From positions 1 to 31,363 of the IMG/VR virus record IMGVR_UViG_3300048912_000059: a stretch of DNA of 31,363 nucleotides; one strand, given 5' to 3'. The position numbers and the translations under genes were made by a program. Numbering within the stretch: position 1 is the first letter of the stretch; the number at the start of each line of letters is the position of its first letter. Shown piece after piece: positions 1,773 to 20,710 of the stretch. This DNA comes from a virus. The notes beneath the pieces were generated by a model. The model ran no database searches and was not told the DNA's origin. It was given only the letters and a program-made list of their open reading frames with translations.

Positions 1773-1787
1773 TCTGGGAGATTAACA

Positions 1788-2321: not shown

Positions 2322-2329
2322 TGCCTAAT

Positions 2330-2347: not shown

Positions 2348-2364
2348 GTACTTAAGGAATAATA

Positions 2365-3359: not shown

Positions 3360-3380
3360 TTTATATCTGAGATAAAATAA

Positions 3381-3961: not shown

Positions 3962-3975
3962 CGGAGTAATGAAAA

Positions 3976-4784
3976 TTGCAGATTAGTAAGTACTTTGCCA
4001 GCATGGGGATTGAAGTTGATAAATCTTCTGTTAAGAAAGTTGATAAAGCCCTTGACCATGTTGAAAATAGACTAAAGAAATTAGGTAAGTTTGCAAACAC
4101 ACCAATCACTCTATCTCTTGGAAGGTTTGATGTAGACCAACGAAGACTGAACATAGCCCTGGGCAATGCCTTAGACATGGCTTCCTCTAGGTTAGTGTTT
4201 GAGATTAGCCGCTTTGATGTCAACCAGCAACATCTTAACAGAGTAATGACAGCTGCCACAATTCAGGCAACCCGTGTTGCTGGTGAAGCTGCCACTATCA
4301 GACCGAATGTAAGGCCGGGTGTTGGTGCGGGAGGACAGGGCCTTGCTGCCGGAGCTGTTGCAGGTAGTGTAGGAGGTCTTCGCGGGATGCCTAACCTATT
4401 TGGTCCGGCACTTGCATTGGGATTGGGCGGATATGGCCTTGGCGCCCTAAATAGACGTAACCAAGAAGTTGTCTCTGCTCAATTACAATCCTCTGCTGTT
4501 GTGCAACAAGCTGGTGGCACAGCACAGCAAGGTTCTGATTCCTTTCAATATTTAAGGTCTGAGGGACAGCGAATAGGCTTCAATTTCCTCGATGCCTCTG
4601 GAGACTATAATAAGTTAATATCGGGTCTAACAGGTTCTGGTATTGGATTAAAAGAAAGTCAGAAGGTCTTCTCAGGATTTGCTGAGTTGGCACGAGTCAA
4701 TAAGTTGGACAAGACGACTCAAAACAGGCTATTTAGGGCGCTCTCCCAAGTAGCCGGTAAAGGTAAGCTCATGAGCGAAGAGCT
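3976..4784 (+). CDS. Tape measure protein, exon 1
   Basis: This is the N-terminal part (about 269 residues) of the tape measure protein, which sets tail length and occupies the tube lumen. Visible are an N-terminal helical region (residues 10-45), a Gly/Ala-rich hydrophobic stretch (about 110-160), then a conserved segment ending KGKLMSEEL that is typical just before a 'GQxxEALPGA' motif. Reading continues only to a stop at 4804-4806, inside the intron. The missing continuation reappears at 5519. The predicted exon end is after CT of a Leu codon (4783-4784). The start is a TTG at 3976, nine bases after GGAG; the nearby ATG at 3969 is out of frame and stops after five codons. Spliced length is 622 residues, short for this family but compatible with a tail of about 90-100 nm. 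Confidence 0.8.
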
Positions 4785-5518
4785 TAATATTAGGCTCGCT
4801 GCATAGAAATATGCAGAAAAATTTACCCCTTTAATTGCTGGAAAGTCCTTATTAATAGTTGACTACAACGTAGAACCTAAGTATAATATATGGTTCAAGC
4901 GTGAATGTTTGAAAACAACTATTTTGGAAAATCAGCAGCGAAGCCCGAAAGGGAACGTTCAACGACTATCGAAACGGCACATTAATGTGGAACGGAGTAG
5001 AGTAGGCTACAAGCGTAGCCGAAACAGGGGGGGTGTTACTTGTATAAAATTTGTACGTATTGCAAAGAAGAACTGGAAATTATTAAGTTCTTTAAAAGAA
5101 AAGACCGTGACCACTACCAAGAAGATAATCCTTTAAAGTACAGCACTATATGCTTTGAATGTTTAGCTTTAAAAACAAAAATAAAGTTCGTTGGTATAGA
5201 AAAAGCTGAGTATGATCATCTTAGACTTATACAAAACGACTGCTGCAAAATTTGTGGTAAACACGAGAGTATTTGCAGAAATGGTAGAAATATCTACTAT
5301 GGATTAAATATTGACCATTGTCATGCAACAGGCAAGGTTAGGGGTCTTCTTTGTAATAGTTGTAATTTAATCATTGGTCACGCAAAGGATCAAATTGATA
5401 TCTTACACAACGCAATCGAATATTTACAAAACACCAAGATGTAGTCTATTCTATAGCGAGAGTTATAGCAGTTCCTTGAGAACGGGGCAGAGAGTAGCGT
5501 CTCTGCTTGAATATAAAG
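4785..5518 (+). mobile_element. Group I intron in the tape measure gene
   Basis: About 734 nt interrupt the tape measure frame and show group I core elements. P1: GAGCTTA (4780-4786) pairs with TAGGCTC (4791-4797), with T4784.G4793 as the conserved wobble pair that marks the 5' splice site. P4: TGCTG (4836-4840) pairs with CAGCA (4933-4937). P7: GACTA (4964-4968), inside GTTCAACGACTATC, pairs with TAGTC (5442-5446), inside AAGATGTAGTC. A P9-region stem pairs 5487-5493 with 5500-5506. The intron ends in G (5518). Joining 4784 to 5519 gives MSEELTGQIAEALPGG, an unbroken frame with the motif expected in this family. The endonuclease gene lies between the two P7 strands, probably in the P8 region. 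Splice coordinates are inferred from structure and protein continuity. Confidence 0.85.
5040..5444 (+). CDS. Intron-encoded endonuclease VII-like homing endonuclease
   Basis: This 134-residue protein has zinc-type cysteine pairs C5/C8, C38/C41, C69/C72 and C105/C108. Around residues 90-112 it has the hallmark LNIDHCHATGKVRGLLCNSC of the recombination endonuclease VII / HNH (beta-beta-alpha metal) group, with D92-H93 and H95 as likely metal and catalytic residues. Such enzymes cut intronless alleles and so spread the intron by homing. It starts at a TTG preceded by a G-rich ribosome binding site (GGGGGGG at about 5027-5033). Its TAG stop (5442-5444) lies inside the 3' strand of P7, so gene and ribozyme share bases. 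Cleavage specificity, presumably near the exon junction in tape measure genes, is inferred. Confidence 0.85.
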   Translation: MYKICTYCKEELEIIKFFKRKDRDHYQEDNPLKYSTICFECLALKTKIKFVGIEKAEYDHLRLIQNDCCKICGKHESICRNGRNIYYGLNIDHCHATGKVRGLLCNSCNLIIGHAKDQIDILHNAIEYLQNTKM

Positions 5519-6578
5519 TACAGGTCAAATCGCAGAAGCCCTCCCCGGAGGTACAGCACTCTTCGCACAAGCATACCAAGCTAAGCTGGGAGGAAACAAA
5601 ACTGGTGCTGACGCCATTCAGGCTCTTTTAGCTGATATGAAAAAAGGTAAAGTTACTAGTGATATCCTGACTTATGCCGGCGCTGCTGCGTCACAAAGAG
5701 CAAACCAAGGGGGTGCGTTGGCAAATGCCTCTCAAGCATCCCAGGCTGAACAAGCCCGCTACCAAAACTCTGTAAACGACATGGCTGTACTAGCTTCAAA
5801 TTCAGGCGTAGAGGAGGGTTTTGCGCGTATTTTCCGTACCCTTAATGCTGGTTTGAGTGAGAGTGGTGGGTTGGTCAGGACTTTAGCCGAGGGCTTTAAT
5901 GAAGCCACTAAATGGGCTGATGATTTACTTCTTTTTCCTCAATCTTTTATCAGGGCTTTAGAGGGTAAAGATAGCGTAGTTGCTGATTGGCTGGGAATTG
6001 ATAAAACAAAGCAACTACAGGAAGATTGGAAAAATATCCAACAAATATTTACAGACATATCTTCTATTAAATTTGACTTCTTACCAACTTTAGAGTCAAC
6101 CGCTCGTGAAATTGCTTCTATTATGAATGCAATAGCTGAATTTCAAAAGTGGAAGAGTGGAACGCTCCCTACAGAGCCTACAAACAATAGCGCAACAGAA
6201 AAAGCCAATTTATTTGGTTTAGAGTACGCATCTCCTGCTGCAATTGTTGGAGACATCATTAATAACACTGGTGTTAATATGTCTAGGGCCAGGGAACGCG
6301 GCAGGGCTGTATACGAAGATCCAAATTCTTTGTACTATCACGATGCGGCTGGTTATGATGATCAACAAGCTGAGATGGCAAAGGCTGCTGCTGAAGATAA
6401 GGCTATGGGTATTGTGAATAACAATAGTAATGAAATCAATATTGAAGTTAATGTTGATGGATCAACCCTTCAAGGTTTGGATGCAACTGCTCAAGCTCAA
6501 GCTATCGGTGAGGCAGTTGCAAATATGTTTGTTCAGTCTTTTGACCAAGTAAATGTTCAATTTCCAGTGAAACAATAA
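5519..6578 (+). CDS. Tape measure protein, exon 2
   Basis: The second exon starts with T completing the split Leu codon, followed by ACA GGT CAA ATC GCA GAA (TGQIAE) and then ALPGGTALFAQAYQAKLGG. The rest is about 353 residues: an Ala/Gln-rich helical zone (SQASQAEQARYQNS), the segment FARIFRTLNAGLSESGGLVR, a hydrophobic helix DDLLLFPQSFIRAL, and a C-terminal region with a strand-like NNSNEINIEVNVDGSTL. The ATG at 5637 is internal, not a start. Without splicing this part of the protein would not be made, so the intron must be removed for tail assembly. Codon use and composition match exon 1. The next gene follows after AAGGAG. Confidence 0.8.
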
Positions 6579-6588
6579 GGAGTCACCT

Positions 6589-7386
6589 ATGAGTTTAGCA
6601 ATCGGGTGGGGTGACTCCTCAATTGACGAGGGAGGTTTTATCTACTGTGATGCAGTCCAGACCTATACACAGAACTATTCTGGGAGTGTTACAAAACATC
6701 CAGTAGATCAAGGTGGAAATATCACGGACCATTTTATCCGTAATAATCCTGTATTTACTATTAGTGCCGTTATTACAGGTGTAGATATTTCTACAGGAAC
6801 CTATTTAATCCAAGATTTGGATGGTAACGCCCCTTACAATAGCAACGAGGCACCTACAGCTGTTAGTGTAAACTCAACCGATAAAAGCGTTCTCAAGAAA
6901 TTTATTCCAGATAGTATTGGACAGTTTTTATCTGACAGTACACCAGAAGTTGTAGTAGATAGCAGACGTACAGATCTAATTGAGCAGATTAGACAAGCCC
7001 TTATTGACCTTACTGCCGGAGTTGTCTTCAACGAAAAATCAGGCCAATTTGATCCTAATATACAACTTGTTCGTTTATTCGAATATGATAATACCCTTCT
7101 TCGTAAGCTGATTAACAACCTTGTAATGACTAAGATCACCTTTAAGGAAGATGCTAATACAGGTTATGGATTGTATTGTGACATTACATTCGAACAAGTT
7201 ACCTTTGCTTTCCTCAAAAAAACTGTAATTCCTAAAGATGTACAAAACTCTCTTAAGAAGAAAGCTTCTAGTAAAGCATCCAAAGGCAAACAAGACAGCA
7301 CACCCCAGAATGTTGATGGAGCTAATGCAGGGGACAATGCCCCTAAAGACACTGACCCATTAAGGAAGGCTAGAGAAAATGGCTGA
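6589..7386 (+). CDS. Dit-like baseplate/distal tail protein
   Basis: This 265-residue protein has an N-terminal domain with SVTKHPVDQGGNITDHFIRN (residues about 33-51) followed by FTISAVITG, the characteristic opening of Dit-like tail proteins that form the ring joining tube and baseplate. The C-terminal 40 residues are low-complexity, lysine/alanine rich (KKKASSKASKGKQDST) and probably flexible. It lies just after the tape measure gene, the expected place, behind a strong AAGGAG site. Its end overlaps the next start by eight bases. Product class is fairly secure; the exact role (hub ring or tube-end) is inferred. Confidence 0.75.
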   Translation: MSLAIGWGDSSIDEGGFIYCDAVQTYTQNYSGSVTKHPVDQGGNITDHFIRNNPVFTISAVITGVDISTGTYLIQDLDGNAPYNSNEAPTAVSVNSTDKSVLKKFIPDSIGQFLSDSTPEVVVDSRRTDLIEQIRQALIDLTAGVVFNEKSGQFDPNIQLVRLFEYDNTLLRKLINNLVMTKITFKEDANTGYGLYCDITFEQVTFAFLKKTVIPKDVQNSLKKKASSKASKGKQDSTPQNVDGANAGDNAPKDTDPLRKARENG

Positions 7387-7711
7387 TAAATATGTAACAA
7401 TGCCTTTATTTCCAGATCCTTACTACACTTATACAATAGCTTTTCAAGGTAATTCTTACATAATTGAGTTCGTCTATAATGAAAGAGTTGGTTTGTATTT
7501 TATAAGTTTATATGACTCCGAGAGTAATCCAATTGTACTTGGTGAGGCATTAGTTCCAAATTATCCAATTCTAAAAGATTACGCTATTTTCCCACTTACT
7601 GGGTTTATTTGGATGGAAGAAAAGGCAGATATTATTTCTGAACCCTATAAAACCTATCCAGACTCAATTGATCAGTACTATAACTGTTTTTATATTTTTA
7701 GAGAAGAGTAA
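7379..7711 (+). CDS. Baseplate plug-like protein
   Basis: The 110-residue, aromatic-rich beta protein (PLFPDPYYTYTIAFQGNSY, then GLYFISLYDSESNPI and LGEALVPNYPIL) resembles the small baseplate plug family encoded between Dit-like and hub genes in myoviruses such as Pam3. The hallmark features are a short double-sheet with a conserved V-P-N-Y-P loop and a G-F-I-W end. It overlaps the previous gene by eight bases and is followed after three bases by the hub gene, so all three are likely translated as a coupled set. The family call depends on recalled resemblance. Confidence 0.65.
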   Translation: MADKYVTMPLFPDPYYTYTIAFQGNSYIIEFVYNERVGLYFISLYDSESNPIVLGEALVPNYPILKDYAIFPLTGFIWMEEKADIISEPYKTYPDSIDQYYNCFYIFREE

Positions 7712-7714
7712 TAT

Positions 7715-8611
7715 ATGGACCTACTACAACGCAACAGGCAGTATCGTTTGATAGTGGGTGATTATCAATCTGGAGACGCGCTAGAGATTACAGATCTTCA
7801 GGTAACTTTTGATATTTCTAAATCTTCAGATAATAAGAAAAAAACTAACAGTGCTGCTATTGAAATTTACAATCTAAGTGAAGATCATATAAAACTTTTA
7901 GACACCGATTACCCAGCAGCAGTTTTTGAAGCTGGTTATCTAGATACAGGCGGTCCACAAAGATTGTTTTCTGGGCAAGTAACACATGTGAGTACTAGAA
8001 AGTCTGGGACGGATAGGGTGACTCAGATCACTTTAGGCACTGGCTATGTTGAATTGAATCATCAAGTCTTGTCTGAATTTGTCCCCGAAGGACAATCTCC
8101 TAAAGATGCTGCCAACAGATTAATTAAAGCAATTGGGGCAGATAGGGGGGTTTTCAATGGTACAAATCTTAACAATCCTTTGCTTTATGGTTACCCTTTA
8201 AGTGGTACACCTAAAGAAATGTTAAATGAATTGTGTGAGAAGTATGCGTGTAATTGGCAACTTGATGATGGCGTTGTTTATATCCATGACAACGACAGAG
8301 GAAACACTGAAAACTTTCAAGAAGCCTACGTTATTTCTAAATACACAGGCTTGATTGAAACCCCATATCGAGTCTCTGGGGATCGTCAAAGATCTAAGAA
8401 AGATAAAGTAAAAAAACCTGGCATCCAAATGAAGATTTTATTAAACCCAGATATTCGGGCAGGCGATATAATAAAATTAGAAGACACTCTAATTAATGGC
8501 TGGTTAAAGGTTGAATCGTTGAGACATACTGGAGGCTGGAGAAGCTCAAGTTGGTATACAGAGATTCGTGCAACAAGCCTTGAAAAAGTTATTAAATCAG
8601 GAGGTAACTGA
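7715..8611 (+). CDS. Baseplate hub protein (gp27-like)
   Basis: This 298-residue protein starts with a strand-rich domain (QYRLIVGDYQSGDALEITDL, residues 8-27), followed by SAAIEIYNLSEDHIKLL, YDTGG-type loops and LFSGQVTHVS. This layout is typical of gp27/gpD-like hub proteins that form the trimeric collar beneath the spike. The C-terminal part (GIQMKILLNPDIRAGDIIKL, then WLKVESLRHTGGWRSSSWYTEI) matches the final barrel of this group. It ends one base into the spike start (TGATGA), so translation is coupled with the spike it would hold. Confidence 0.75.
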   Translation: MDLLQRNRQYRLIVGDYQSGDALEITDLQVTFDISKSSDNKKKTNSAAIEIYNLSEDHIKLLDTDYPAAVFEAGYLDTGGPQRLFSGQVTHVSTRKSGTDRVTQITLGTGYVELNHQVLSEFVPEGQSPKDAANRLIKAIGADRGVFNGTNLNNPLLYGYPLSGTPKEMLNELCEKYACNWQLDDGVVYIHDNDRGNTENFQEAYVISKYTGLIETPYRVSGDRQRSKKDKVKKPGIQMKILLNPDIRAGDIIKLEDTLINGWLKVESLRHTGGWRSSSWYTEIRATSLEKVIKSGGN

Positions 8612-9396
8612 TGAGTTCAGAAGCAGTTGCAGCAATCCAAGCTTCAATGGTCAGTGCCTTTAGTAGTCAGATGGATAATGTCTTTACAAATATTCCTTGT
8701 ATTGTTGTAGCTGTCAGAGATGGGTTGAATGGTCAAATGGTTGATATTCAACCTACTATTAATCAAAAGTTTCAAGATGGTACAGTTAAAGAGTACCCAA
8801 TTCTCGCCGGTATACCGGTTTCTTTCCAAGTTTCTAAGAAGTCTGGCTTTACCTTTCCTATCGAGGTTGGGGATACAGGAATGGCTATATTCTCTATGCG
8901 TAATATGGATGGATGGAAATCTGGTAACGGAAGACCATCTAGTCCTATGAATTTTGCTAAGATGGATAAAAGTGATGCCATCTTCCTTCCGGGTATTCAA
9001 CCTCCTGGAACTGCTGTCAATAATCCATCTAAACACATTCTCCCGCATGATACTAAAGATACTGTAATTTTTGGCAACTTAAGTGGTACTGAGGCAGAGA
9101 TTAGGATTAGGGCCGATGGTAGTATAGGTATTACAACGAGTAATATGCCGATTATTATTAATGGTTCTGATGTAACTATCAACGCTGCAAGTAGTTTGAA
9201 TTTTAACACTCCAAGTTTGATAGTAGATGCTGATATAACACAATGGATTGGAAATATTAATCTACAAGGTAATCTGACTCAAGTGGGGAACTACACCATA
9301 ACAGGTATTGCCACCTTTAATGGAATCCCATTTTCAACACACAAACACATTGGGGTTACACCCGGTAGTGGTACTTCTGGTACTCCTACAGTATAA
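8611..9396 (+). CDS. Membrane-puncturing spike (gp138-like)
   Basis: The 261-residue protein has an N-terminal OB-like domain (CIVVAVRDGLNGQMVDIQPT, then AGIPVSFQ and VGDTGMAIFSMRNMDGW) followed by LPHDTKDTVIF. From residue about 150 it has a repetitive beta-helix (EIRIRADGSIGITTSNMPIIINGSDVTINA). It ends in STHKHIGV with H244-x-H246, the metal-binding apex motif seen in P2 gpV and gp138 spikes. It would sit at the tip of the tube and pierce the outer membrane on contraction. It overlaps the hub gene by one base and is followed by the gp25-like gene. Confidence 0.8.
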   Translation: MSSEAVAAIQASMVSAFSSQMDNVFTNIPCIVVAVRDGLNGQMVDIQPTINQKFQDGTVKEYPILAGIPVSFQVSKKSGFTFPIEVGDTGMAIFSMRNMDGWKSGNGRPSSPMNFAKMDKSDAIFLPGIQPPGTAVNNPSKHILPHDTKDTVIFGNLSGTEAEIRIRADGSIGITTSNMPIIINGSDVTINAASSLNFNTPSLIVDADITQWIGNINLQGNLTQVGNYTITGIATFNGIPFSTHKHIGVTPGSGTSGTPTV

Positions 9397-9406
9397 GGAG
9401 TTACTA

Positions 9407-9778
9407 ATGGATTTTAAACTAAATCTAGATGGAGATATCATCTGGCGGAATGGGGCGTTGCTTAAACAAGACACAACTCAAACACCAGTAGAAGTTACAG
9501 GTCAAAGACTTTTAATTCTTCTTAGAACGTGGATGGAAGAATGGTTTTTAGATACGACTTACGGTATACCTTGGGAACAAAGAATACTTGCCAAAAAGCA
9601 AACTTCAAAAGCAGCAGTTGATTTAATACTACAACAAAAAGTATTATCCGATAAAGGTGTTAAAGAAATTGTTTCTTGGGATTCTACTTTTGTTAATAGA
9701 CATTATAATCTCATTTTTAAAATTAAAGTTGTGGACGGGACAATCTCAGCACCCCTCACTTTAAACCCTATAAATTAA
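9407..9778 (+). CDS. Baseplate wedge protein (gp25-like)
   Basis: From the ATG at 9407, seven bases after AAGGAG, the product is 123 residues. It opens with a strand pair (DFKLNLDGDIIWRNGALLKQ), has RLLILLRTWMEEWFLDTTYGIPWEQ in the middle and closes with a helix-strand region ending in ISAPLTLNPIN. This matches the small gp25/GpW-like wedge proteins that seed sheath polymerisation. Its position between spike and gpJ-like gene is the standard one. The frame is open further left but overlaps the spike gene without a ribosome binding site. Confidence 0.75.
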   Translation: MDFKLNLDGDIIWRNGALLKQDTTQTPVEVTGQRLLILLRTWMEEWFLDTTYGIPWEQRILAKKQTSKAAVDLILQQKVLSDKGVKEIVSWDSTFVNRHYNLIFKIKVVDGTISAPLTLNPIN

Positions 9779-9787
9779 GGAAATAAA

Positions 9788-11230
9788 ATGGCGGGTATTT
9801 CTGACCAAGGCTTTACAATAAAAAGAATGACAGAGATACTTTCAGACTTACGAGCTGAAGCTACCTCTTTATTTCAAGATCTCATAGAACCCGGTGATCA
9901 GGTCGATACATCTGATAGCTCAGCTTTAGGTAGACTAATCGCGCTTGTATCTCCTAGTATGGCTGATTTGTGGGAAGTTGCACAAGCTGATTATCAAGCA
10001 TTTGATCCTAACTCTGCAACAGGTATTGCTCTGGATAACCTTGTAGCCCTTGGTGGTATCACCAGACAGGAACAGACCTATTCCACGGCACAAGTGATCA
10101 TTTCTGGTGACAACGGTACTCTGGTATCATCAGGGCTCACTGTAGGCAGCTCAATTGACAGTAGTCAGTGGACTATTCTGTCTCCTGTAGCTCTTTCTCC
10201 TTCTCAAGCTGTCGGTGTTACGGTCACTCCTATAACGGTTTCTAACACCACAGTTTATAGCATAACTTATACATCCGTCACTACTGCTAATACGATCAAT
10301 TTCACAAGTGATGCATCTGCTACAGCTGCTGAAATTGTTGCTGGGTTGAATGCTGTAATAATTGCAAGCCACCCAAGTCTTGTTAGCAGCATTGAAGGTA
10401 CGGCTCTTAAAATTAGTCGTGTTGATGAATTTTCTGCTGTAACTTTCACTGTTACCTCTAATATTGGAATCACTAAAGTACAAAAGCTTGGTGAGGTTCA
10501 GAGCAGTGTAGTGGGAGAGGTTAATGCTGAAGCTAATACTTTGAATGTTATTCTTACCCCTCAGCTTGGTTGGGACAGCGTTACAAACCCCCAAGCTGCG
10601 AGCCCCGGACGTAATCTTGAAACAGATGAGGAACTTCGTCTACGGTTTAGAGAGACTAAATTTGAACGGGCTTCTAATATTCTTGAAGCTTTGTACTCAG
10701 CATTGATTAATCTTGAAGGTGTTGAGGAAGTAAGAATCTACGAAAATGATACAGATGTTGTAGATGCCTTTGGTGTTCCTGCACACAGTTTTATGCCGAT
10801 TGTTCTTGGTGGGGTTAGTATTGATATTGCAAACACCATTTGGGAAAATAAACCAATGGGTATCAGAAGTTATGGTGACACAGTTGTAGTTATCTATGAC
10901 ACTCAAGGTTTTTCTCATAATATTGGTTTTGAACGACCTGATCCACTACCTGTTTATATTACGATCAACCTCACTACTGATAGTGAATTCCCAGGTACGG
11001 GTGTTGACGACATCAAATCAGCATTGATTGCATACTTTGATAGTAATCTTGGTATTGGTGATGATGTTATTTGGAGTAGATTATTTACCCCAATTAACAC
11101 AGTCAAAGGACATGAAGTAGATAGCTTGTTTATTGGAACATCTCCCAATCCTACAAGTACAGATAGCATTCCAGTTTCATTTGATATGATTGCTTCACTA
11201 TCCTCAGACAACATTATTATCAATACATAA
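9788..11230 (+). CDS. Baseplate J-like wedge protein
   Basis: The 480-residue protein shows the gpJ pattern: an N-terminal FTIKRMTEILSDLRAEATSL, then ALGRLIALVSPSMADLWEVA and ATGIALDNLVALGGI (residues about 77-91), and a core from TDEELRLRFRETKF through VEEVRIYENDTDV. The wedge would link baseplate hub and fibres. Residues about 145-235 carry an extra Thr/Ser-rich module containing NFTSDASATAAEIVAGLNAV. Almost the same string occurs in the tail sheath. At 480 residues it is longer than usual for gpJ, in keeping with this insertion. An ATG after AAGGAAATAA begins it. Confidence 0.8.
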   Translation: MAGISDQGFTIKRMTEILSDLRAEATSLFQDLIEPGDQVDTSDSSALGRLIALVSPSMADLWEVAQADYQAFDPNSATGIALDNLVALGGITRQEQTYSTAQVIISGDNGTLVSSGLTVGSSIDSSQWTILSPVALSPSQAVGVTVTPITVSNTTVYSITYTSVTTANTINFTSDASATAAEIVAGLNAVIIASHPSLVSSIEGTALKISRVDEFSAVTFTVTSNIGITKVQKLGEVQSSVVGEVNAEANTLNVILTPQLGWDSVTNPQAASPGRNLETDEELRLRFRETKFERASNILEALYSALINLEGVEEVRIYENDTDVVDAFGVPAHSFMPIVLGGVSIDIANTIWENKPMGIRSYGDTVVVIYDTQGFSHNIGFERPDPLPVYITINLTTDSEFPGTGVDDIKSALIAYFDSNLGIGDDVIWSRLFTPINTVKGHEVDSLFIGTSPNPTSTDSIPVSFDMIASLSSDNIIINT

Positions 11231-11240
11231 GGAGTGGTAT

Positions 11241-12041
11241 ATGGCTATCACGCCTTTTGAAGAAATCGATTATCTTTCTGAAGCTCGTGAACGAGTGACG
11301 GAGCAGTTTGTAGGAAAGGAAGTTTTTGATAAATATCTTCAACTCCTTATCAACGCTCAAGTAGAAATTCAGAAAGTATTCAAAGATTTGATGCAGCTTA
11401 GAAGTCTTGATACTGCTACAGGTGCTCAGCTTGATGTAATTGGTAGAATCGTTGGTCAAGAGCGTATCTTATTGAATGCTGACTTTTATGACTTCTTTGG
11501 GTTTCAAGGTGCAACTAAAGCAGCAAGTTTTGGTGAACTTGGTAACACAGCAGTAGGGGGCATGTTCTACGACTTTGGTAAACCACTTGGAGGTAATATT
11601 GAACTGGACGATGCGACCTACAGACTTTTTATTAAAGCCAAGATCTTCAAGAATACAACATCATCTACACCAGAAGAATTTCTAGCAGTACTTAATCTTG
11701 TTTTCGGGACTGATACGACAGTATTAACAGAAGAGGGAGACGCCTCTATTACTGTATTGTTATCTAGAACCTTAACTGACTTTGAAAGAGCGCTCCTCTT
11801 CTACATCAGTAATGAACCGGGTTACCCATCAAGACTTATCCCAAAGACGGTTGGTGTTAGGATAAATTTTGGAGAATATGATGGAGACAATTTCTTTGGT
11901 TTTGACGGAGTACCAGGGGCTAAGGGTTTCGGGGAATTTACAGGAAGCTATGGCTGGGGGCTTGGTTATGGTTTAAACTACGGAGATAGTGACTACACTA
12001 CAGTTTCTGGCGGATATTTTGCTAGCCTCTACCAAATTTAA
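11241..12041 (+). CDS. DUF2612-like tail/baseplate protein
   Basis: From the ATG at 11241 (after AAGGAG) the product has 266 residues. The region around residues 25-80 (LQLLINAQVEIQKVFKDLMQ, RSLDTATGAQLDVIGRIVGQ) carries the ATGAQLDxIGxIVG motif of DUF2612 / gpI-like wedge-tip proteins. A central domain (FRLFIKAKIFKN-like, TSSTPEEFLAVLNLVFG) follows, and then a glycine/aromatic-rich tail (GFGEFTGSYGWGLGYGLNYG) that probably binds the fibre. The position between gpJ-like and fibre genes supports a role as fibre adaptor. The last codon lies just before the terminator of the opposing gene. Confidence 0.7.
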   Translation: MAITPFEEIDYLSEARERVTEQFVGKEVFDKYLQLLINAQVEIQKVFKDLMQLRSLDTATGAQLDVIGRIVGQERILLNADFYDFFGFQGATKAASFGELGNTAVGGMFYDFGKPLGGNIELDDATYRLFIKAKIFKNTTSSTPEEFLAVLNLVFGTDTTVLTEEGDASITVLLSRTLTDFERALLFYISNEPGYPSRLIPKTVGVRINFGEYDGDNFFGFDGVPGAKGFGEFTGSYGWGLGYGLNYGDSDYTTVSGGYFASLYQI

Positions 12042-12046
12042 GTAAG

Positions 12047-12069
12047 AGAAAAAGCCCCATTAGGGGCTT
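12047..12069 (-). terminator. Intrinsic terminator of the reverse-oriented HNH gene
   Basis: AAGCCCC (12052-12058) pairs with GGGGCTT (12063-12069) around ATTA, and the minus-strand transcript runs into TTTTTCTC. On the plus strand the stem is followed by AGTAAG without a T-tract, so late transcription should pass through while minus transcription stops. The stop codon of the HNH gene lies inside the stem. Confidence 0.75.
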
Positions 12070-12682
12070 AGTAAGTATAGTTCTCATAGCGTTCAATAAG
12101 AGCCTTGGCAATTCTTTCATCAGACTGCTCAGATGCCAATATCTTGGCTTGCTCTAGTTTGAAAGCTAACCATGCTTGATGAGCTTCTTCGGCTGTATCA
12201 AAATAGCCTAAGTGTTTTCGTTTACCAGACTCCGCAGAACAGCACTTTGCTGTGTATTTTTTATCCCTCTTATGAAAACACACACCGATAGGATAGTCTC
12301 CGCGTACTGCACCATTTTCTAGAAGAAAGGTGTTAATTCTCGGATCAACAAATACACAAGTTTCAGGGTTATAAGTCTTGTTTCCTTTAAACAAGATGTC
12401 TTTGTCCAGGTGCTTACCTTCCCAATTTTGTTTCTCCATCCAAGCCTTAAAAGTAGAGAACAGATGCCACTCTTCCGTAACGGAGCAACCTACATAGGTA
12501 GGGAATTGCTTTTGGTACTTAGGGCAGTAACATCTAACTAACATACTACCCCATGTATTGTAAAATGGACAAATCCAAGTCATCTTTCTTTTACCTTCTA
12601 CAATACCATATTCATAGACATTGTAGTTTGCATCATTAACACCTACGCCGCTAAGTAATTTGTTTCTCTTTCTCAGTTTCAC
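12068..12682 (-). CDS. Free-standing HNH endonuclease with AP2 domain
   Basis: This 204-residue protein is encoded against the direction of all neighbours, between baseplate and fibre genes. The N-terminal half has TWGSMLVRCYCPKYQ (residues 43-57), the HNH-like region LDKDILFKGNKTYNPETCVF (92-111) and R-I-N after it. Residues about 131-175 form an AP2-like DNA-binding domain (PIGVCFHKRDKKYTA, then KHLGYFDTAEEAHQAWLAF). This is a well-known family of free-standing phage homing endonucleases. The start is a GTG after GAGG. It has a private sigma70-type promoter and terminator, so it is a complete selfish cassette. Confidence 0.85.
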   Translation of the reverse strand: MKLRKRNKLLSGVGVNDANYNVYEYGIVEGKRKMTWICPFYNTWGSMLVRCYCPKYQKQFPTYVGCSVTEEWHLFSTFKAWMEKQNWEGKHLDKDILFKGNKTYNPETCVFVDPRINTFLLENGAVRGDYPIGVCFHKRDKKYTAKCCSAESGKRKHLGYFDTAEEAHQAWLAFKLEQAKILASEQSDERIAKALIERYENYTY

Positions 12683-12718
12683 TTTATAACCTCAATTAAG
12701 TTTTTTGGTAATGTCGAA

Positions 12719-12747
12719 ACTATAACACAATCATGAATTCTTGTAAA
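12719..12747 (-). promoter_or_regulatory. Sigma70-type promoter for the reverse HNH gene
   Basis: On the minus strand TTTACA (12747-12742) and TATAGT (12724-12719) are separated by exactly 17 bases, close to the TTGACA-N17-TATAAT consensus. The expected transcript starts about 30 bases before the GTG of the endonuclease. It points into that gene alone and would allow host polymerase to express it early, independently of the late genes around it. Confidence 0.7.
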
Positions 12748-12761
12748 GGAAAAATATAGAC

Positions 12762-13658
12762 ATGGCTGAAATAACCAAACCTGCTGATATCAATAAAATA
12801 TGGGCCGCTGCCGGTGATGTCTTAGCTCCATCTGATTCAAAAATTGCTACAGGCTGGCAGGTTGAGATTCCAGCAAGGCAATACTTTAATTACATCGATA
12901 ATAAACAGGACCAAGCTATTGCCCACATCAATCAGCATGGTATTGCTGTTTGGGACAATACTACAGAATACCAGTATAGTTTAAGCGGCACTAAATCAAT
13001 TTGCATGGGTTCTGATGGGATTATTTATCGCGCAAAACAAGTAAGTATTAACCAAAACCCAGTAACAGATACCACTGATACCTATTGGGAAGTTGCCTTT
13101 GCTAGTGCAGCAGACTTTTATACTTCAACTCAAAGTGATGCCCGATACTTACAAAAATCGGCTAATCTCTCTGACCTAACAAATACAGCGGTCGCCCGTA
13201 CAAATCTTTCTGTATATTCACAAGCTCAGACTTATACTAAAACAGAAGTAGATGCCAAGACCACAGTTGCATCCACAGCACAAGCGCAAGCTCAGAGCAG
13301 TGATACGGTGTTAATTTCTGCGCTGAAGCTTGCGCAATCTTTCCAAGGCGCTAATCAGTCACTCACAAATCCAGGTTTTCAAAAGTTTCCAGGTGGCCTT
13401 ATTGTACAATTCGGATTGACCACAACTTCTGCAAGTGAGGACATTCTTGTAACATTCCCAAAAGAATTTACCACAATCTTCAGTGTAGTAGCTACGTCTG
13501 ATGTTCCGGTCGGAGGTGATCCTGCACTATATGCTGTAGCTCAAACATCGTCTGTAGCTACTACAAATTTTAGGTTGAGAGCATCTGTCAATGGTGATAG
13601 CAACCCCGTTGGTCAACGTATATCGGGACAAGTTAGATGGGTAGCAATTGGTATCTAA
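12762..13658 (+). CDS. Tail fibre protein
   Basis: This 298-residue protein has an N-terminal adaptor (ADINKIWAAAGDVLAPSDSK). A small carbohydrate-binding-like module follows around residues 65-115 (GIAVWDNTTEYQYSL, IYRAKQVSIN, DTYWEVAF). Then comes the fibre repeat DARYLQKSANLSDLTNTAVA (about 129-148), a helical alanine/glutamine segment (TVASTAQAQAQSSDTV), and a C-terminal beta domain ending in GQRISGQVRWVAIGI, like the trimerising tip of gp53-type fibres. It probably forms the shorter fibre that first touches the host. Its ATG follows AAGGAAAAATATAGAC. Separation from the baseplate genes is due to the HNH insertion. Confidence 0.75.
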   Translation: MAEITKPADINKIWAAAGDVLAPSDSKIATGWQVEIPARQYFNYIDNKQDQAIAHINQHGIAVWDNTTEYQYSLSGTKSICMGSDGIIYRAKQVSINQNPVTDTTDTYWEVAFASAADFYTSTQSDARYLQKSANLSDLTNTAVARTNLSVYSQAQTYTKTEVDAKTTVASTAQAQAQSSDTVLISALKLAQSFQGANQSLTNPGFQKFPGGLIVQFGLTTTSASEDILVTFPKEFTTIFSVVATSDVPVGGDPALYAVAQTSSVATTNFRLRASVNGDSNPVGQRISGQVRWVAIGI

Positions 13659-13691
13659 GTTACAACAGCCTCTAAAATTTAAGGAAATTAT

Positions 13692-16592
13692 ATGACTCAG
13701 CAAACATCTCCATTCCTAGAAGCCAAATATGGTTGGAACTACGGAGAAAGTGGTTGGAATACGGGGATGGATGAAAACCTAACTAAGTTTTCTTTCTTGT
13801 TTGACAAAAACATCGACGGTATTGTTTCATCACTTCCTTCGGTAGTTAATGGTACAGCTTACTTTTTAACTACTGATAATAGGATCTACTTTGGTGTTTC
13901 GGGGGCGTGGTATTCGACACCAACCCCTAAGTGGTTTACATTAATCTTACGTTCTTCCGGCGCCAGTTACCAATTCAACGGTACTGCCCTTACGGCTGTA
14001 GCAAATAACACCGACCTTTCATCACAACTTCAAGCAATCCAAGTTACTTTGTCCTCTTTAGGGACGGCTGCTTTTCAAAATACCGAGTATTTTGCATCCA
14101 ATTCTGAGTTAGACGTGGCATCCGCACAGGCCAATAGCTACACCGATTCTCTCAGAACTGACCTAGCAACACAAGCAGCCCCCACACTTGGTTCCACACT
14201 GGTTGGATACAGAAATCGAACTGTATATAGCCGACTTAACGACCAAGTACAATATGCTGATTATCCTTCACTTCAAGCAGCCCTTTCAACAGGTAAACGT
14301 GTTTGGATACCCTCCTCTGTTACAAGCATAACACTAGATGCTGCTGCCGTGACAGCCGCCCTGCCACTTTTAAATATGATTGACGTAGAGACAGATTTAA
14401 CAATAATTGTTCCGGATGGGACTTTTACTTTTACTTCTGGTAATATTGTCAATGTAGGACAAAATGGTAAAATCACCCTAACCGGTTCTACACCCGCTTC
14501 TACGACACTGGTTAGTGTTAACTCTGTAACTGGTACTTCTGGTAACTACACTGTCGTATATAATGTATCATCATCTTCTGGTATGGTGGTTGGGGATTAT
14601 CTGAAATTGGATAACGTTGTTCCCCTTCTACCGCTTGCGGGTGATCAGTCTGTATTCAGAAAAAGGGTGTCTCAAAATGAGATACTGCAATGCTCAGCCC
14701 TTCTTGGTAATATAACTGCAAACACTGGTGGTGGCTCCGCCGCGTGGACCTCAATAGCTTCAGGCGTATTAACAGATTATATATCCGTAGGAGATTTATT
14801 AACAATAAGAGGGCAGACTAGGGAGATTACCAGTGTTTCTACCTTATCTGTTGGAATTTCCGGCGCATGGACCCTGGGCACAACAGGCTCACGGGGATGG
14901 AGACTTACTCGTCCTAATACAGGTACTATAGGAACTGGTGGTGTAAGCAGTTCAACTGTAACCGGGACTTCAAGTCTGTTCACTACAGAAGCAAATCTTG
15001 GAGATTATTTACTCTGCGATGGAGTTATGTCCACCATTACAGCAATAAACTCAGCAACTAGTATTACAGTAAGTCCCGCTGTTGTCATTGCAAATGGAAC
15101 TAAATATTCTATAATCACCCCCGGCGTTTCTCATCAAGGTACATTTGAGATTACTGCTGTTTCAGGCAATCAAGTTACAGTTAAGAGTGGTTGGAGAGGC
15201 CCGTACTCCCCTCCGATTAATAAAATTAGTGGGGGAGAAGTAAAAACTATTAAAGTTGTTTTGAAAAACACTTCCTCAGGTGATGGGGTGTTTTTCTCTT
15301 GTGGGTCTAATCTTAAATGGATTGACAATATGGTTCTTGTCAATACTACAGGGAGTACAGGAACCCACGGTATAGCTATAAACGGCAGAACCCCCGAAGG
15401 TCCAACACAGACTGGACCAGTTAACAACTTCCAAGCTGGTGCAGGATTTGCTCTAATTGGTTGGGGTCGTGGGGTTTTTGCAGGCATTGGCTGTAGTGCG
15501 CAACTACGTAAGAGTCATATTCTCAATTCAACTGCATTTGGTGTGTGGGCTCTTGAAGGTACAAATGTAGCACTCAGAGAGTGTGTAGTGGGTAGTACCT
15601 TAGGACGAGGTGCGCAACTAAATTCCGGTTCAACCTCAATAATTACAGCTTCTTGGTTTCAGGGTAACACTTCTGATAATATTAATATTGTCGCCGGTGC
15701 AACTGCTTACGGAGAGATTATTGTCGTTTACGGAGCTGGTGTCATGGGCGTTCGTAACGATGGTGCCAACTTCGACGCCCCTGAAGGTTTTTATGGAAGT
15801 TGTACGGGTTCTGGGTATTTCAGTACGGGTTCCGCTACAGCAACGTTATCAAGAGCTTTAATTGTTGGTAATGCACGAAATAATATTGAGATTTCTGAAA
15901 ACTCGTTGGTCGCTGTGGTAGAAACCACGAGTGTGGGCTCTCTAGGCACAACAGGCTCTGGTTTTGGTATTACAGCGACCGATTGTATCCTATCGGGACT
16001 AGGTTTAAACAGTTATGGTAATGCATCAACAGCTGTGTCCTTATCCGGGCCGTTTAGCTGTATGAACACTCCAGCAGCCTTTTTATCAAATGTTAGTTAT
16101 TCACAGCTTAGTCGTGCTGTATTGACAGGGAGTAAGCTTAGTTCAACTGTAGGTATTACAGTCGCTTCTGGTGCGACTGTGCTGGCAGACTCTATTACCC
16201 CAACTCCTGGCATCTCTGGCGTTGCAAGATTTGATGAATATGCAATCAATGGTGCCATGATTAGTACTGGCTCAGCCGCCACAGCTTATGGGATTAATAC
16301 CCTCAGAGTTAATGGTGGTGCACTGCTCACCAAAGTATTGACAGCAAGCCAAGTTGCAAGTTTTGGTACGGTTGCAGCAAATAGCTCTACCAGTATCACT
16401 ATAACAGTAACAGGCGCATCTGTGGGAGATGTCGTAACTGTATCTTCGGTGTCTGGCTTAAGCGTAGATGGCATTATAATGGATGCAGCAGTTACGGCGA
16501 CCAATACAGTTACTGTTCGGGCGCAAAATAGGACAGGGGCGGGGATTGTCTCAAACCCTACATTGCGTGTGGTTGTTATCAGCGCAGCATAA
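13692..16592 (+). CDS. Large tailspike / tail fibre, parallel beta-helix
   Basis: The 966-residue protein is the largest in the window. Residues 1-80 (FLEAKYGWNYGESGWNTGMD and onward) form a virion-binding head. A helical linker follows around 120-165, then GSTLVGYRNRTVYSRLND (about 172-190), a segment common at the entry of beta-helical tailspikes. From about 190 to 880 the sequence is Ser/Thr/Gly/Val-rich with short repeated strands (VNVGQNGKITLTGS, GAGFALIGWGRGVFAGIGCS, GVWALEGTNVALREC). This is expected of a right-handed parallel beta-helix that binds or depolymerises surface polysaccharide. The C-terminus (ASVGDVVTVSSVSGLSVDG...) looks like a trimerisation domain. No catalytic acid triad can be assigned by eye. 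Confidence 0.75.
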   Translation: MTQQTSPFLEAKYGWNYGESGWNTGMDENLTKFSFLFDKNIDGIVSSLPSVVNGTAYFLTTDNRIYFGVSGAWYSTPTPKWFTLILRSSGASYQFNGTALTAVANNTDLSSQLQAIQVTLSSLGTAAFQNTEYFASNSELDVASAQANSYTDSLRTDLATQAAPTLGSTLVGYRNRTVYSRLNDQVQYADYPSLQAALSTGKRVWIPSSVTSITLDAAAVTAALPLLNMIDVETDLTIIVPDGTFTFTSGNIVNVGQNGKITLTGSTPASTTLVSVNSVTGTSGNYTVVYNVSSSSGMVVGDYLKLDNVVPLLPLAGDQSVFRKRVSQNEILQCSALLGNITANTGGGSAAWTSIASGVLTDYISVGDLLTIRGQTREITSVSTLSVGISGAWTLGTTGSRGWRLTRPNTGTIGTGGVSSSTVTGTSSLFTTEANLGDYLLCDGVMSTITAINSATSITVSPAVVIANGTKYSIITPGVSHQGTFEITAVSGNQVTVKSGWRGPYSPPINKISGGEVKTIKVVLKNTSSGDGVFFSCGSNLKWIDNMVLVNTTGSTGTHGIAINGRTPEGPTQTGPVNNFQAGAGFALIGWGRGVFAGIGCSAQLRKSHILNSTAFGVWALEGTNVALRECVVGSTLGRGAQLNSGSTSIITASWFQGNTSDNINIVAGATAYGEIIVVYGAGVMGVRNDGANFDAPEGFYGSCTGSGYFSTGSATATLSRALIVGNARNNIEISENSLVAVVETTSVGSLGTTGSGFGITATDCILSGLGLNSYGNASTAVSLSGPFSCMNTPAAFLSNVSYSQLSRAVLTGSKLSSTVGITVASGATVLADSITPTPGISGVARFDEYAINGAMISTGSAATAYGINTLRVNGGALLTKVLTASQVASFGTVAANSSTSITITVTGASVGDVVTVSSVSGLSVDGIIMDAAVTATNTVTVRAQNRTGAGIVSNPTLRVVVISAA

Positions 16593-16608
16593 ATTTAATG
16601 GGATGTTT

Positions 16609-17187
16609 ATGACAAACTATTCAGAAGCTGCAAAGCTCTTGGGTGTAGAGGAGGCAGCCGTAAAGGCTGTCGCTTCTGTCGAGAGTAATGGATATGGTTT
16701 CATCAAGGATGCTACTGGAGCTGATGTGCCTAAGATTCTTTTTGAACGTCATATCATGTTCGAGAGACTTAGGGATTTCACCCCAATCAAGTCTAAAGAT
16801 ATGGCTGCTAAGTATCCTGATATTGTCAATGAATCTCCAGGCGGTTATAAGGGAGGTTTAGCTGAATGGGAACGTCTTGAAAGGGCCATTAAGATTGATC
16901 GTGTATCGGCTTTGGAAAGTGCCTCTTGGGGTTCGTTTCAAATAATGGGTTTCCATTGGAAGGCTTTAGGATTTAACTCTGTTCAAGAATTAGTAAATAA
17001 GGCTTATACAGAAGAAGGTCAACTTGATCTTTTTGTTAGTTTTGTTAAAGCAAGCCCAAATGTCTTGAGGGCTTTGAAAGCTAAAGACTGGGTTGGTGTG
17101 GCTCGTGGTTACAACGGTCCTGGGTACGCCGTTAATAAATATGACATTAAGATGAAAGAAGCTTATGAACGATTCAGTAAAAGTTGA
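16609..17187 (+). CDS. Endolysin, N-acetylmuramidase type
   Basis: From the ATG at 16609 the product is 192 residues. It fits the N-acetylmuramidase (DUF3380-like) endolysins that cleave the glycan chains of peptidoglycan. AVKAVASVESNGYG holds the likely catalytic Glu at residue 25, followed by PKILFERHIMFERLRD (41-56), SASWGSFQIMGFHW (104-117) and the C-terminal YNGPGYAVNKYDIKMKEAY. No signal sequence is seen, so it depends on the holin for release. An in-frame ATG two codons earlier (16603) is possible; GGGA is better spaced from 16609. It overlaps the holin gene by 23 bases. Confidence 0.85.
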   Translation: MTNYSEAAKLLGVEEAAVKAVASVESNGYGFIKDATGADVPKILFERHIMFERLRDFTPIKSKDMAAKYPDIVNESPGGYKGGLAEWERLERAIKIDRVSALESASWGSFQIMGFHWKALGFNSVQELVNKAYTEEGQLDLFVSFVKASPNVLRALKAKDWVGVARGYNGPGYAVNKYDIKMKEAYERFSKS

Positions 17188-17506
17188 AGATACTGTAACA
17201 CCCATCACAAAAGATACAGCTGTTGAAGCAACTATCACTTCCACTCTGTCATCTACTCCTACTAAATTAGCGCTCGTGCCCAATTGGAAAAAAGTTCTCA
17301 AAACTTATTCCTTTTGGACTACTGTATTGTCTGCCCTGTTGTCGTTGGTTGAAATCATTCTTCCATTCTTTTCTCTCCTTGAACCTACAATGTCTGTAGC
17401 AGCCTATGGGACATGCATGTTCGTGCTGAACGTCTCAGCTGCTGTTTTCAGGATGATTAAACAACATAAGTTGTGGCAGCCAGAGGATAAGGATAATGTT
17501 CAGTAA
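17165..17506 (+). CDS. Holin
   Basis: This 113-residue protein has two predicted membrane segments (about residues 49-71, SFWTTVLSALLSLVEIILPFF, minus the last bases, and 76-96, MSVAAYGTCMFVLNVSAAVF). A basic segment RMIKQHK follows. The long polar N-terminus is Thr-rich. Two membrane spans and a place directly after the endolysin suggest a holin that opens the inner membrane at lysis. Its start overlaps the endolysin and its end overlaps the inner spanin by eleven bases, so the lysis cassette is translationally coupled. The holin label is by context and topology. Confidence 0.7.
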   Translation: MNDSVKVEDTVTPITKDTAVEATITSTLSSTPTKLALVPNWKKVLKTYSFWTTVLSALLSLVEIILPFFSLLEPTMSVAAYGTCMFVLNVSAAVFRMIKQHKLWQPEDKDNVQ

Positions 17507-17984
17507 CCTATTCTCTGGTGCCAGTCTGTACATCATCCTAGCCTTGTTAGCTTCAACAGCAGGGTTTGGCTATCTTTCATATAGTTTGAGCAACGATAAG
17601 GCTGTAGCAGTAGCTCAGCTTAAAGATGCTAATGATGCGATTGTAGGGTATAAAAAGGATGCCGAACTAAAGGATTTGAGCTGTAAAATTGATGACCTTA
17701 GTGCCTCAGAATTAACAGAAGACAAAAACAAGATTGATGAAGCTATTTCTCCCATTAATGATCAATTAAGAGACTTAGCCGCTGTTAAGAAAATTCCTAA
17801 TAAAGCTGTCTCAAGTGCAGCTATTTTACCAAAAGAGACTACTAAAGATGAAAGCAATTTCTTGCCTGATGATGGGCTTCTTAGTCCTAATGTTAAACGG
17901 CTGCTCAACAACGGGTGGTGTTCGGTCTACCCCGACAGTAACCAATGTCTTCCCACCAGACAGTCTTCTGATAAACCCCTGTAA
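17496..17984 (+). CDS. Inner-membrane spanin subunit (Rz-like)
   Basis: The 162-residue protein has one N-terminal membrane helix (about residues 9-29, SLYIILALLASTAGFGYLS). A long periplasmic helical region follows (DKAVAVAQLKDANDAIVGYK through INDQLRDLAAVKKIP) and then a proline-poor tail. This is the form of i-spanins, which with a lipoprotein partner fuse inner and outer membranes in the last step of lysis. The partner gene (17848-18120) begins inside this gene in the +1 register, the usual embedded or overlapping arrangement. Its presence shows that the host has an outer membrane. Confidence 0.8.
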   Translation: MFSNLFSGASLYIILALLASTAGFGYLSYSLSNDKAVAVAQLKDANDAIVGYKKDAELKDLSCKIDDLSASELTEDKNKIDEAISPINDQLRDLAAVKKIPNKAVSSAAILPKETTKDESNFLPDDGLLSPNVKRLLNNGWCSVYPDSNQCLPTRQSSDKPL

Positions 17985-18120
17985 GGCCAAACCATCGGGT
18001 GAGAGCCTTATAGACCTAGCTATTGCCCAAAACACTAATGTCGCTTGCATTGGTAAGTGGGAAAAACAAATGCAAAAGCTTCGTGATAATAAGAAAGACA
18101 AGGAGGAACTTTACAAATGA
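17848..18120 (+). CDS. Outer-membrane spanin lipoprotein (Rz1-like)
   Basis: From the ATG at 17848 the product is 90 residues. A signal peptide with a short hydrophobic core (MKAISCLMMGFLVLMLNGC) ends in the lipobox LNGC, with Cys19 to be lipidated. The mature part is short and contains a proline-rich segment (TPTVTNVFPPDSLLINP), as in Rz1 proteins, then a helical region. It overlaps the inner spanin gene over 137 bases in another frame and continues 136 bases beyond it. Translation is then coupled to the next gene through an ATGA overlap. Confidence 0.8.
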   Translation: MKAISCLMMGFLVLMLNGCSTTGGVRSTPTVTNVFPPDSLLINPCKAKPSGESLIDLAIAQNTNVACIGKWEKQMQKLRDNKKDKEELYK

Positions 18121-18431
18121 CAGGGAATGACGCCAACAACCGTATTAGCAACTTGTTTGAGAAGGCTTGCCTTGCCCTTCTTTCTCTATTTGTGACAATC
18201 ATGTTCATTACCTACCAAGGTATGAAGAGTGATTACAAAGAGATGCAGACAAGCATAAACCAGCTTCAGATGATTAAAGTAAATAAAGAAGATTTACGTG
18301 AAGTTGAGGTTAGGCTTAACACAAAGATTGAATCCCTAGGAGCAACCTTATCAGCTAACTCAATGGCTAATAAAGCAGATATCCTAGGAAGGATGGATTT
18401 GTACTTTGGAAGTTTAAAAAATAAGAAATAG
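18117..18431 (+). CDS. Small membrane protein with coiled coil, late operon
   Basis: I do not recognise this 104-residue protein. It has one membrane segment (about residues 17-33, ACLALLSLFVTIMFITY) near the N-terminus and then a charged heptad-type coiled coil (KSDYKEMQTSINQLQMIKVN, ..EDLREVEVRLNTKIESL). The start overlaps the stop of the o-spanin (ATGA). The topology resembles accessory lysis proteins such as antiholins or lysis timing factors and is similar to the next gene. It is not a plain copy of the spanins because it has no lipobox or proline segment. Function is not known. Confidence 0.7.
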   Translation: MTGNDANNRISNLFEKACLALLSLFVTIMFITYQGMKSDYKEMQTSINQLQMIKVNKEDLREVEVRLNTKIESLGATLSANSMANKADILGRMDLYFGSLKNKK

Positions 18432-18440
18432 GAAGGAAGT

Positions 18441-18782
18441 ATGTTTTGGGTTATAGTTGAGCGTTCGGTACACCTAACTACCCTAGTCCTTCTAATTGTG
18501 ATGTTATCCATAATTTTCACGAATAACAGAAGCACTCATGATTTCACTTCTTTGGAAACAAAGATAGAAAGCTCTAAGAGTGATTTGAGAAAGGTTATAT
18601 CCAATAATATGGATTATACAGACGGTAGAGTTAATAAGCTGTCTGAGAATCAAGATAACTATCAAATACTTGTTGATCGCAGAATGCATATAATGGAGAT
18701 GCAACTTAAAGGTTTGGTGGAAGATAAGAAGTCCAATCAGAAAATCGTGAATAACAATATAAATACACTTACCACGAACTGA
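18441..18782 (+). CDS. Second small membrane protein with coiled coil
   Basis: This 113-residue protein is unrecognised by name. Residues about 9-27 (SVHLTTLVLLIVMLSIIFTNN) form a membrane segment. The remaining 85 residues are polar and heptad-like (DFTSLETKIESSKSDLRKVI, DNYQILVDRRMHIMEMQLKG). Layout and size match the gene just upstream, so the two may be ancient duplicates. It is the last late gene before the terminator. GGAAGG precedes the ATG. A role in lysis timing or in excluding other phages is possible but not shown. Confidence 0.65.
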   Translation: MFWVIVERSVHLTTLVLLIVMLSIIFTNNRSTHDFTSLETKIESSKSDLRKVISNNMDYTDGRVNKLSENQDNYQILVDRRMHIMEMQLKGLVEDKKSNQKIVNNNINTLTTN

Positions 18783-18815
18783 AGAATAAAAACAATAACA
18801 AGCCAGTAGGCACGC

Positions 18816-18835: not shown

Positions 18836-18848
18836 TCTCAGATACTTA

Positions 18849-18886
18849 AAAGCTCCCTTCCGTGATTGGATAGGGAGCTTTCTTTT
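18849..18886 (+). terminator. Bidirectional terminator between late and early operons
   Basis: AAAGCTCCCT (18849-18858) pairs with AGGGAGCTTT (18872-18881), ten base pairs around a 13-base loop, followed on the plus strand by CTTTTGCC. Read on the minus strand it is followed by TTTTAAG. It lies exactly at the convergent junction of the late plus-strand genes and the long minus-strand operon, so it can end both transcripts. Confidence 0.85.
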
Positions 18887-20674: not shown

Positions 20675-20710
20675 AAGAAAAAGGCCACACATCCCGAAGG
20701 ACATGCAGCC
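20675..20710 (-). terminator. Strong intrinsic terminator after nrdB
   Basis: On the minus strand twelve pairs (20710-20699 with 20694-20683, including several G.U) enclose a UUCG tetraloop (20698-20695) and are followed by TTTTTCTTT (20682-20674). The stem starts 26 bases after the nrdB stop. This is a classic stable tetraloop terminator. It would reduce expression of the eight small downstream genes relative to the reductase. Confidence 0.8.

Follow-up and report, generated by a model that had tools for sequence, protein, structure and literature searches.

A predicted HNH-AP2 homing endonuclease gene, antisense at a phage baseplate/fibre junction, with promoter-like and terminator-like sequences at its ends

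The junction and its antisense gene

We analysed a virus record of 31,363 bases, referred to below as the window. On its plus strand, a gene for a baseplate-type DUF2612 protein (11190-12041; Pfam DUF2612, E 2e-25; phrog_587) lies upstream of a tail fibre protein gene (12762-13658; phrog_2282, E 2e-48; Gp53-like_C), and the same strand also codes for sheath, hub, spike, baseplate J, muramidase and spanin. In the phage collection, the nearest DUF2612 proteins are those of Pseudomonas phages such as vB_PsaM_M1 (54.7%) and psageK4e/phiPsa374 (43.8%). The HNH/AP2 gene found between the two genes runs from 12682 to 12068 on the minus strand; the first-pass annotation rightly described it as opposed to the late operon, since the DUF2612, fibre and other tail genes are on the plus strand.

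Past 19.6 kb, the minus strand holds a ribonucleotide reductase gene and most long open reading frames. A hairpin predicted by folding at 18848-18882, between the convergent late (plus) and minus-strand gene blocks, is stable in either strand, at -20.3 kcal/mol (z -4.1) and -21.2 kcal/mol (z -5.2), and may terminate transcription; it is absent from the list produced by the terminator scan. Another terminator-like hairpin, of 12 pairs, is found at 20683-20710 on the minus strand, just 3' of the minus-strand gene 20736-21752. The Rfam and tRNA searches of the window gave no match, and comparison with plasmids gave no DNA match. The search for PF00940 RNA polymerase matched 0 of 10 relatives, and its control search was equally without a match, which makes the negative uninformative.

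The antisense gene (12068-12682, minus strand) has a GTG start and a TAA stop, and its 204-aa product matches phrog_953 (E 1e-91); phrog_953, 374 and 2081, all labelled "HNH endonuclease", cover the HNH part of the protein. Pfam AP2 was matched at residues 132-177 with E 9e-6, which is below the curated cut-off; the Pfam HNH domain was not matched at E 0.1, in keeping with the IPA-HNH class described below, whose N-terminal HNH domain is too far diverged for the standard HNH_3 profile, and the NCBIfam search gave no match. An AlphaFold (AF2) model built on a 27-member family alignment has a mean pLDDT of 91. Foldseek returned nothing at E 0.001 for this model, and the VIA fold comparison ranked plant AP2 domains highest: 7wq5 (Z 7.2, 2.8 A over 62 residues), followed by 1gcc (Z 6.8, 2.4 A over 59 residues). 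WRI1, the protein of 7wq5, was also matched by the family profile on sequence (E 4e-5). The fold of the HNH part had no clear relative in either Foldseek or VIA, PacI reaching only Z 3.6. The residues LDKD (92-95), N101, C109, F111 and N117 do not vary among the 27 aligned family members. In our own alignment to HNH motifs, Lys94 presumably stands at the position of the usual first histidine.

A named counterpart is ORF209 of phage ICP1 (RefSeq tag gp211), which we take to be the gp209 of the IPA-HNH paper (PMC10448857). The two proteins share 36% identity over 162 aa (E 6e-30; hhalign 99.7%), the same top PHROG and the LDKD motif. Judging from sequence, the gene is a free-standing homing endonuclease gene of the IPA-HNH class.

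Occupied and empty alleles of the junction

The first-pass annotation regarded the gene as a reverse-oriented cassette inserted between the baseplate and fibre genes, and the comparison of relatives with and without it supports a compact minus-strand unit at this site. Two close relatives, L006 and L007, are empty: the stop and start codons of the neighbouring genes are separated by 18 nt without an HNH gene, and the DUF2612 proteins are 95.8% and 94.7% identical to that of the window. Relative to these, the inserted cassette spans 12042-12742, with ends that are ambiguous by a few bases because GTAA is present at both. Two other relatives, L005 and L009, are occupied, with HNH proteins 78% and 81% identical to that of the window in the same place and orientation.

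The presence of the gene at this locus is patchy. It lies between the DUF2612 and fibre genes in 3 of 37 records that have both genes, the window included; these records were counted by hand, and some of them probably represent the same phage. Twenty-nine junctions were inspected in detail. The HNH gene is present in three of them; 20 are tight, with 13-35 nt (including the stop codon) separating the fibre start from where the DUF2612 match ends; and six contain a longer stretch without an HNH match. The records outside this set (L018, L020, L021, L028, L029, L039, L049 and L053) have no HNH match between the two genes. One junction, in L045, carries a sense ORF of 162 aa (2943-3431) that resembles, by eye, a SAR-type lysozyme, and a similar stretch of about 500 nt is also found in L038 and L042. 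Because these three records hold such a stretch, the junction seems to be open to insertion.

Sequences at the two ends of the cassette

Upstream of the HNH gene, the minus strand contains TTTACA (12742-12747) and TATAGT (12719-12724) separated by 17 nt, 37 bases 5' of the GTG codon (12719 to 12682), exactly as the first-pass annotation had noted. The two hexamers match the consensus at 10 of 12 positions, and the -10 hexamer is preceded by a TG extension, which is present in the window and L009 and absent in L005. A probable Shine-Dalgarno sequence of the HNH gene, GAGG, is found at 12690-12693 (minus strand). No hairpin sequestering it is predicted: a search for an RBS-hiding structure of the T4 type showed that the 53-nt leader folds no better than its shuffles in the window, L005 and L009.

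The claim that this promoter is private to the cassette does not hold. The right-hand sequence GTAAAGGAAAATATAGACATG, common to the empty alleles, L005 and the window (with one extra A), comprises the ribosome-binding region and the start of the fibre gene. TTTACA is the complement of TGTAAA, in which five bases are those of the recipient and one is from the cassette; bases 12743-12747 of the -35 hexamer are thus also present in the empty alleles, within the ribosome-binding region of the fibre gene. In the place of the -35 hexamer the empty alleles have TTTACT, with no -10-like bases at that spacing. Since five of the six -35 bases come from the recipient and the -10 hexamer from the cassette, the insertion completes a promoter-like sequence and does not bring a wholly private one. 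A promoter completed in this way may help the junction to tolerate an antisense copy.

Such a sequence could also be fortuitous. According to this alternative, which we consider rather unlikely, the -35 hexamer merely reflects its complementarity to the fibre ribosome-binding site, and any transcription of the HNH gene is read-through on the minus strand, coming from the right. The recipient origin of five -35 bases is in agreement with it, as is the abundance of similar sequences nearby: in the region 8000-18000, we found 37 promoter-like matches versus 23.1 expected, an excess, and eight further sites there likewise score 10 of 12 to consensus. Because such matches are common in the surrounding AT-rich DNA, the promoter-like sequence taken alone is weak evidence. 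For the hexamer pattern with at most two mismatches, there is no excess over the whole window (7 found versus 5.79 expected), and the HNH site is the only perfect instance of the pattern in it. The promoter score of this site, built on E. coli position frequencies, is 11.1; for random stretches of 176 nt, the 95th percentile is 9.8 and the 99th is 12.0. In the L005 genome, a score of at least 10 was obtained for 14% of 50 gapped (gap of at least 60 nt) versus 10% of 84 ungapped gene starts, so that the score is a poor discriminator between them; the HNH start ranks 7th among the 50, and the three other HNH copies of this genome score at most 7.6.

At the other end of the cassette, a hairpin with a U-rich tail (12049-12069, minus strand) overlaps the stop codon of the HNH gene. 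The stem-loop at 12052-12069 has 7 pairs, 5 of them G-C (-12.8 kcal/mol, z -4.3; 0 of 200 shuffles as good), and is the sole minus-strand candidate at or below -9 kcal/mol in 1-18800 (own script, loop of 3-8). The tail that follows reads UUUCUCUU on the minus strand versus AGUAAGUA on the plus strand; therefore, the T-tract is restricted to the minus strand, as proposed. The stop codon had been placed in the stem, where two of its three bases are indeed found, the third being outside. In all three occupied copies, a stop-overlapping hairpin begins two bases inside the HNH gene and a C interrupts the U-rich tail; the stem of L009 is altered yet paired, with one G-C changed to G-U. A one-way intrinsic terminator is expected to consist of a GC-rich hairpin and a U-rich tail confined to one strand, and we regard this hairpin as a predicted terminator of this kind.

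It was also suggested that the arrangement leaves late transcription unblocked. This is consistent with the terminal hairpin, which lacks a U-tract on the plus strand, and less so with the interior of the gene, where the window has three weak hairpins (-4.7 to -6.3 kcal/mol) that look like terminators on the plus strand. L005 has two such hairpins, at other places, and L009 has none.

We then considered HNH copies elsewhere. In 19 of 20 related phage records (one of which, L003, was obtained through its HNH), there are 1-7 matches to the HNH protein each, at 63 places, of which 60 were taken into the analysis; one of the 60, L144, is without a BLAST match. Family samples consisted of the best 80 of 565 and the best 80 of 546 matches, with a further 15 loci, and near-duplicates, recognized by the 15-mers they shared, were discarded (139 to 113 copies in the first set, 229 to 171 in total). 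Of the 171 non-redundant copies, 93 are sense to both flanks and 8 are antisense; 10 are convergent, 5 are divergent, 50 are mixed and 5 are undecided. These strand classes are approximate because genes were called longest-ORF-first.

A hairpin at or below -6 kcal/mol at the stop codon was found in 3 of 8 antisense copies, all at the junction site of the window, and in 4 of 93 sense, 2 of 10 convergent and 3 of 50 mixed copies. No antisense copies other than those three combine such a hairpin with a promoter score of at least 8.6. In the first set of 113 copies, this score was reached by 5 of 5 antisense versus 7 of 64 sense copies (Fisher 7e-5), three of the five being those at the window junction. 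We considered a general rule that antisense copies of the family bring their own promoter, and dropped it: in the next 58 copies, 0 of 3 antisense (scores 8.4, 5.4 and 3.1) versus 2 of 29 sense copies reached the threshold. The pooled counts are 5 of 8 versus 9 of 93 and, by site, 3 of 6 versus 9 of 93 (P = 0.02). The failure of the fresh antisense copies is a further point in favour of a fortuitous promoter, as is T4 segD, an antisense gene for which no promoter was found, according to PMC2988022.

Three of the surveyed copies have features of their own. A stretch of about 400 nt without a called ORF, 3' of another antisense copy (L094:3160-3560), looks structured, and its Rfam search gave no match at E 0.1 or better. 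Directly 5' of an antisense HNH gene, L171:3901-3968 matches the int-alpA RNA with a score of 35.0, versus the gathering score of 35.8. In the L005 phage, an HNH copy of 45% identity (L107; G001:79588-80163) has one in-frame TAA in the aligned stretch and is possibly decaying.

What speaks against a fortuitous promoter is recurrence. TTTACA and TATAGT are kept at the exact 17-nt spacing in all three diverged occupied copies, with scores of 10.1-11.1 in 3 of 3, although the invariance of the -10 hexamer, judged within the leader alone, has P = 0.05 across the three copies. Transcription by read-through from the right would, in addition, have to pass the strong both-strand hairpin at 18848-18882, which lies ahead of the HNH gene. 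Because the specificity of the score is poor, the case for a real promoter rests on the three-copy recurrence; as far as sequence can tell, what lifts both the promoter-like sequence and the hairpin above chance is that two diverged relatives have them at the same position.

Mobility of the cassette, its possible expression and known systems

The cassette and its left flank have discordant histories. Between the window and L005, the nucleotide identity of the cassettes is 73% (pS 0.77, near saturation; pN 0.145), versus 91.5% for the DUF2612 genes (pS 0.33), so that either the divergence of the cassettes predates that of their left flanks, or each cassette was acquired independently. At its 3' end (11970-12041, plus strand), the DUF2612 gene exists as two nearly synonymous haplotypes: the last 69 nt are 95.7% identical between the window and L005 and 97.1% between L006 and L007, versus 65-68% between the groups, and only 2 or 3 of 23 residues differ at the protein level. 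This makes it a candidate co-conversion tract or target region. A chimeric contig, L030, from metagenome 3300020045, which is the source of the empty L007 as well, has the occupied-type tract together with the hairpin and the 3' end of the HNH gene. L009 is occupied yet has a third flank haplotype (46/63 to the window, 49/63 and 47/63 to the empty alleles). The right flank does not go along with occupancy, the 5' end of the fibre gene being 73% identical between the window and L005 and 84% between the window and L006. In each of the four pairs that we compared, the tail-fibre region is mosaic; its DNA identity to all four relatives drops to 39-49% at window positions 13400-13658 and 14200-15400 and is about 60% in 13692-14200. 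Co-conversion during homing would be the best single account of the flank pattern, the alternative being ordinary recombination of tail modules.

Taken at the sequence level, these comparisons establish the insertion, the recurring end signals, the history discordant with the left flank, the switched flank tract in two occupied versus two empty relatives and the recipient-supplied -35 bases. We propose, with a probability of roughly 65%, that a mobile free-standing homing-endonuclease cassette entered the baseplate/fibre junction in antisense orientation and forms a small minus-strand transcription unit of its own. The basis of this reading is one site with three related copies. Host sigma70 polymerase would produce an mRNA of about 650 nt, from about 12712 to the hairpin, and its translation could be immediate because no hairpin hides the HNH ribosome-binding site. 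The AP2 domain would then bind, and the HNH domain cut or nick, co-infecting empty-allele genomes close to where the baseplate gene ends; with the occupied genome as repair template, the cassette would be copied together with its flank. Cleavage and homing into empty alleles may occur early. Later, plus-strand transcription would cross the promoter and yield RNA antisense to the whole HNH mRNA; therefore, the gene should fall silent late in infection without a dedicated repressor. The timing is the least secure step of this scheme.

A stronger version, in which geometry itself times the endonuclease, is tentative and, as a whole, somewhat unlikely. Here, the complement of the recipient ribosome-binding site completes a sigma70 promoter, the gene is expressed early and silenced by late antisense transcription, and the one-way terminator spares the baseplate gene and leaves late transcription free. 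If this were true, cutting would hit co-infecting empty-allele phages before their replication.

Two other explanations concern the role of the nuclease. It might be kept chiefly to interfere with co-infecting phages at the tail locus, with homing being incidental. The value of pN between HNH copies is well under that of pS, and PMC11620839 describes a phage intron endonuclease in the competition of co-infecting phages. However, the patchy presence (3 of 37 records) and the spread of the family over many sites look selfish, and we consider interference as the chief role quite unlikely, with the proviso that it overlaps with homing. Least probable is an inert passenger, no longer active as a nuclease and moved by ordinary tail-module recombination: the mosaic tail-fibre region and the lysine presumed to replace the first histidine of HNH motifs would fit, but the frame is intact, pN/pS of the HNH gene is about 0.2, LDKD 92-95, N101 and N117 are invariant in the 27 aligned family members, and LDKD recurs in ICP1 ORF209.

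The proposed mobile antisense cassette can be compared with several known systems. The IPA-HNH (ICP1-like Phage AP2-associated HNH) proteins (PMC10448857) share with it an atypical N-terminal HNH and a C-terminal AP2 domain, membership in phrog_953 and multiple copies in phages. ICP1 ORF209 has the orientation of its annotated neighbours, in contrast to the window gene, which is antisense and flanked by promoter and terminator signals. Certrevirus CB7 is similar in that it carries 21 HNH homing endonucleases, some of them free-standing and others intronic; however, the available part of its description (PMC7344957) does not mention any antisense unit provided with a promoter and a terminator of its own.

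The remaining parallels come from T4-like phages, as given in the available part of PMC2988022. T4 segD is, like the window gene, an antisense free-standing endonuclease gene amid late structural genes (23 and 24), and every T4 homing gene except segD is co-oriented with its neighbours. Unlike the window gene, segD belongs to the GIY-YIG family, has no specific promoter that could be found and has terminators both upstream and downstream; its transcript level is probably very low. The same source lists antisense transcripts among the consequences that insertion may have. Endonuclease-specific promoters adjoining the ORF are described there for T4 segB, Aeh1 mobE and I-TevI; however, endonuclease-specific promoters are said to be middle or late, never early, and on earlier transcripts of these three genes the RBS is hidden by a hairpin, whereas the window gene has a sigma70-like match and no RBS hairpin.

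Among the papers listed for antisense, opposite-strand and late-operon homing genes and for early promoters of free-standing ones, the arrangement is absent from titles and the beginnings of abstracts. The unit appears to be an element of a known kind, with T4 segD as the antisense precedent, in an arrangement that we did not meet at the level of titles and abstracts. An antisense copy with its signals kept in three diverged phages, together with natural empty alleles, represents a clean test case for how selfish nucleases fit into phage transcription, for whether late antisense RNA shuts them off, and for their possible role in driving exchange where baseplate and fibre genes meet.
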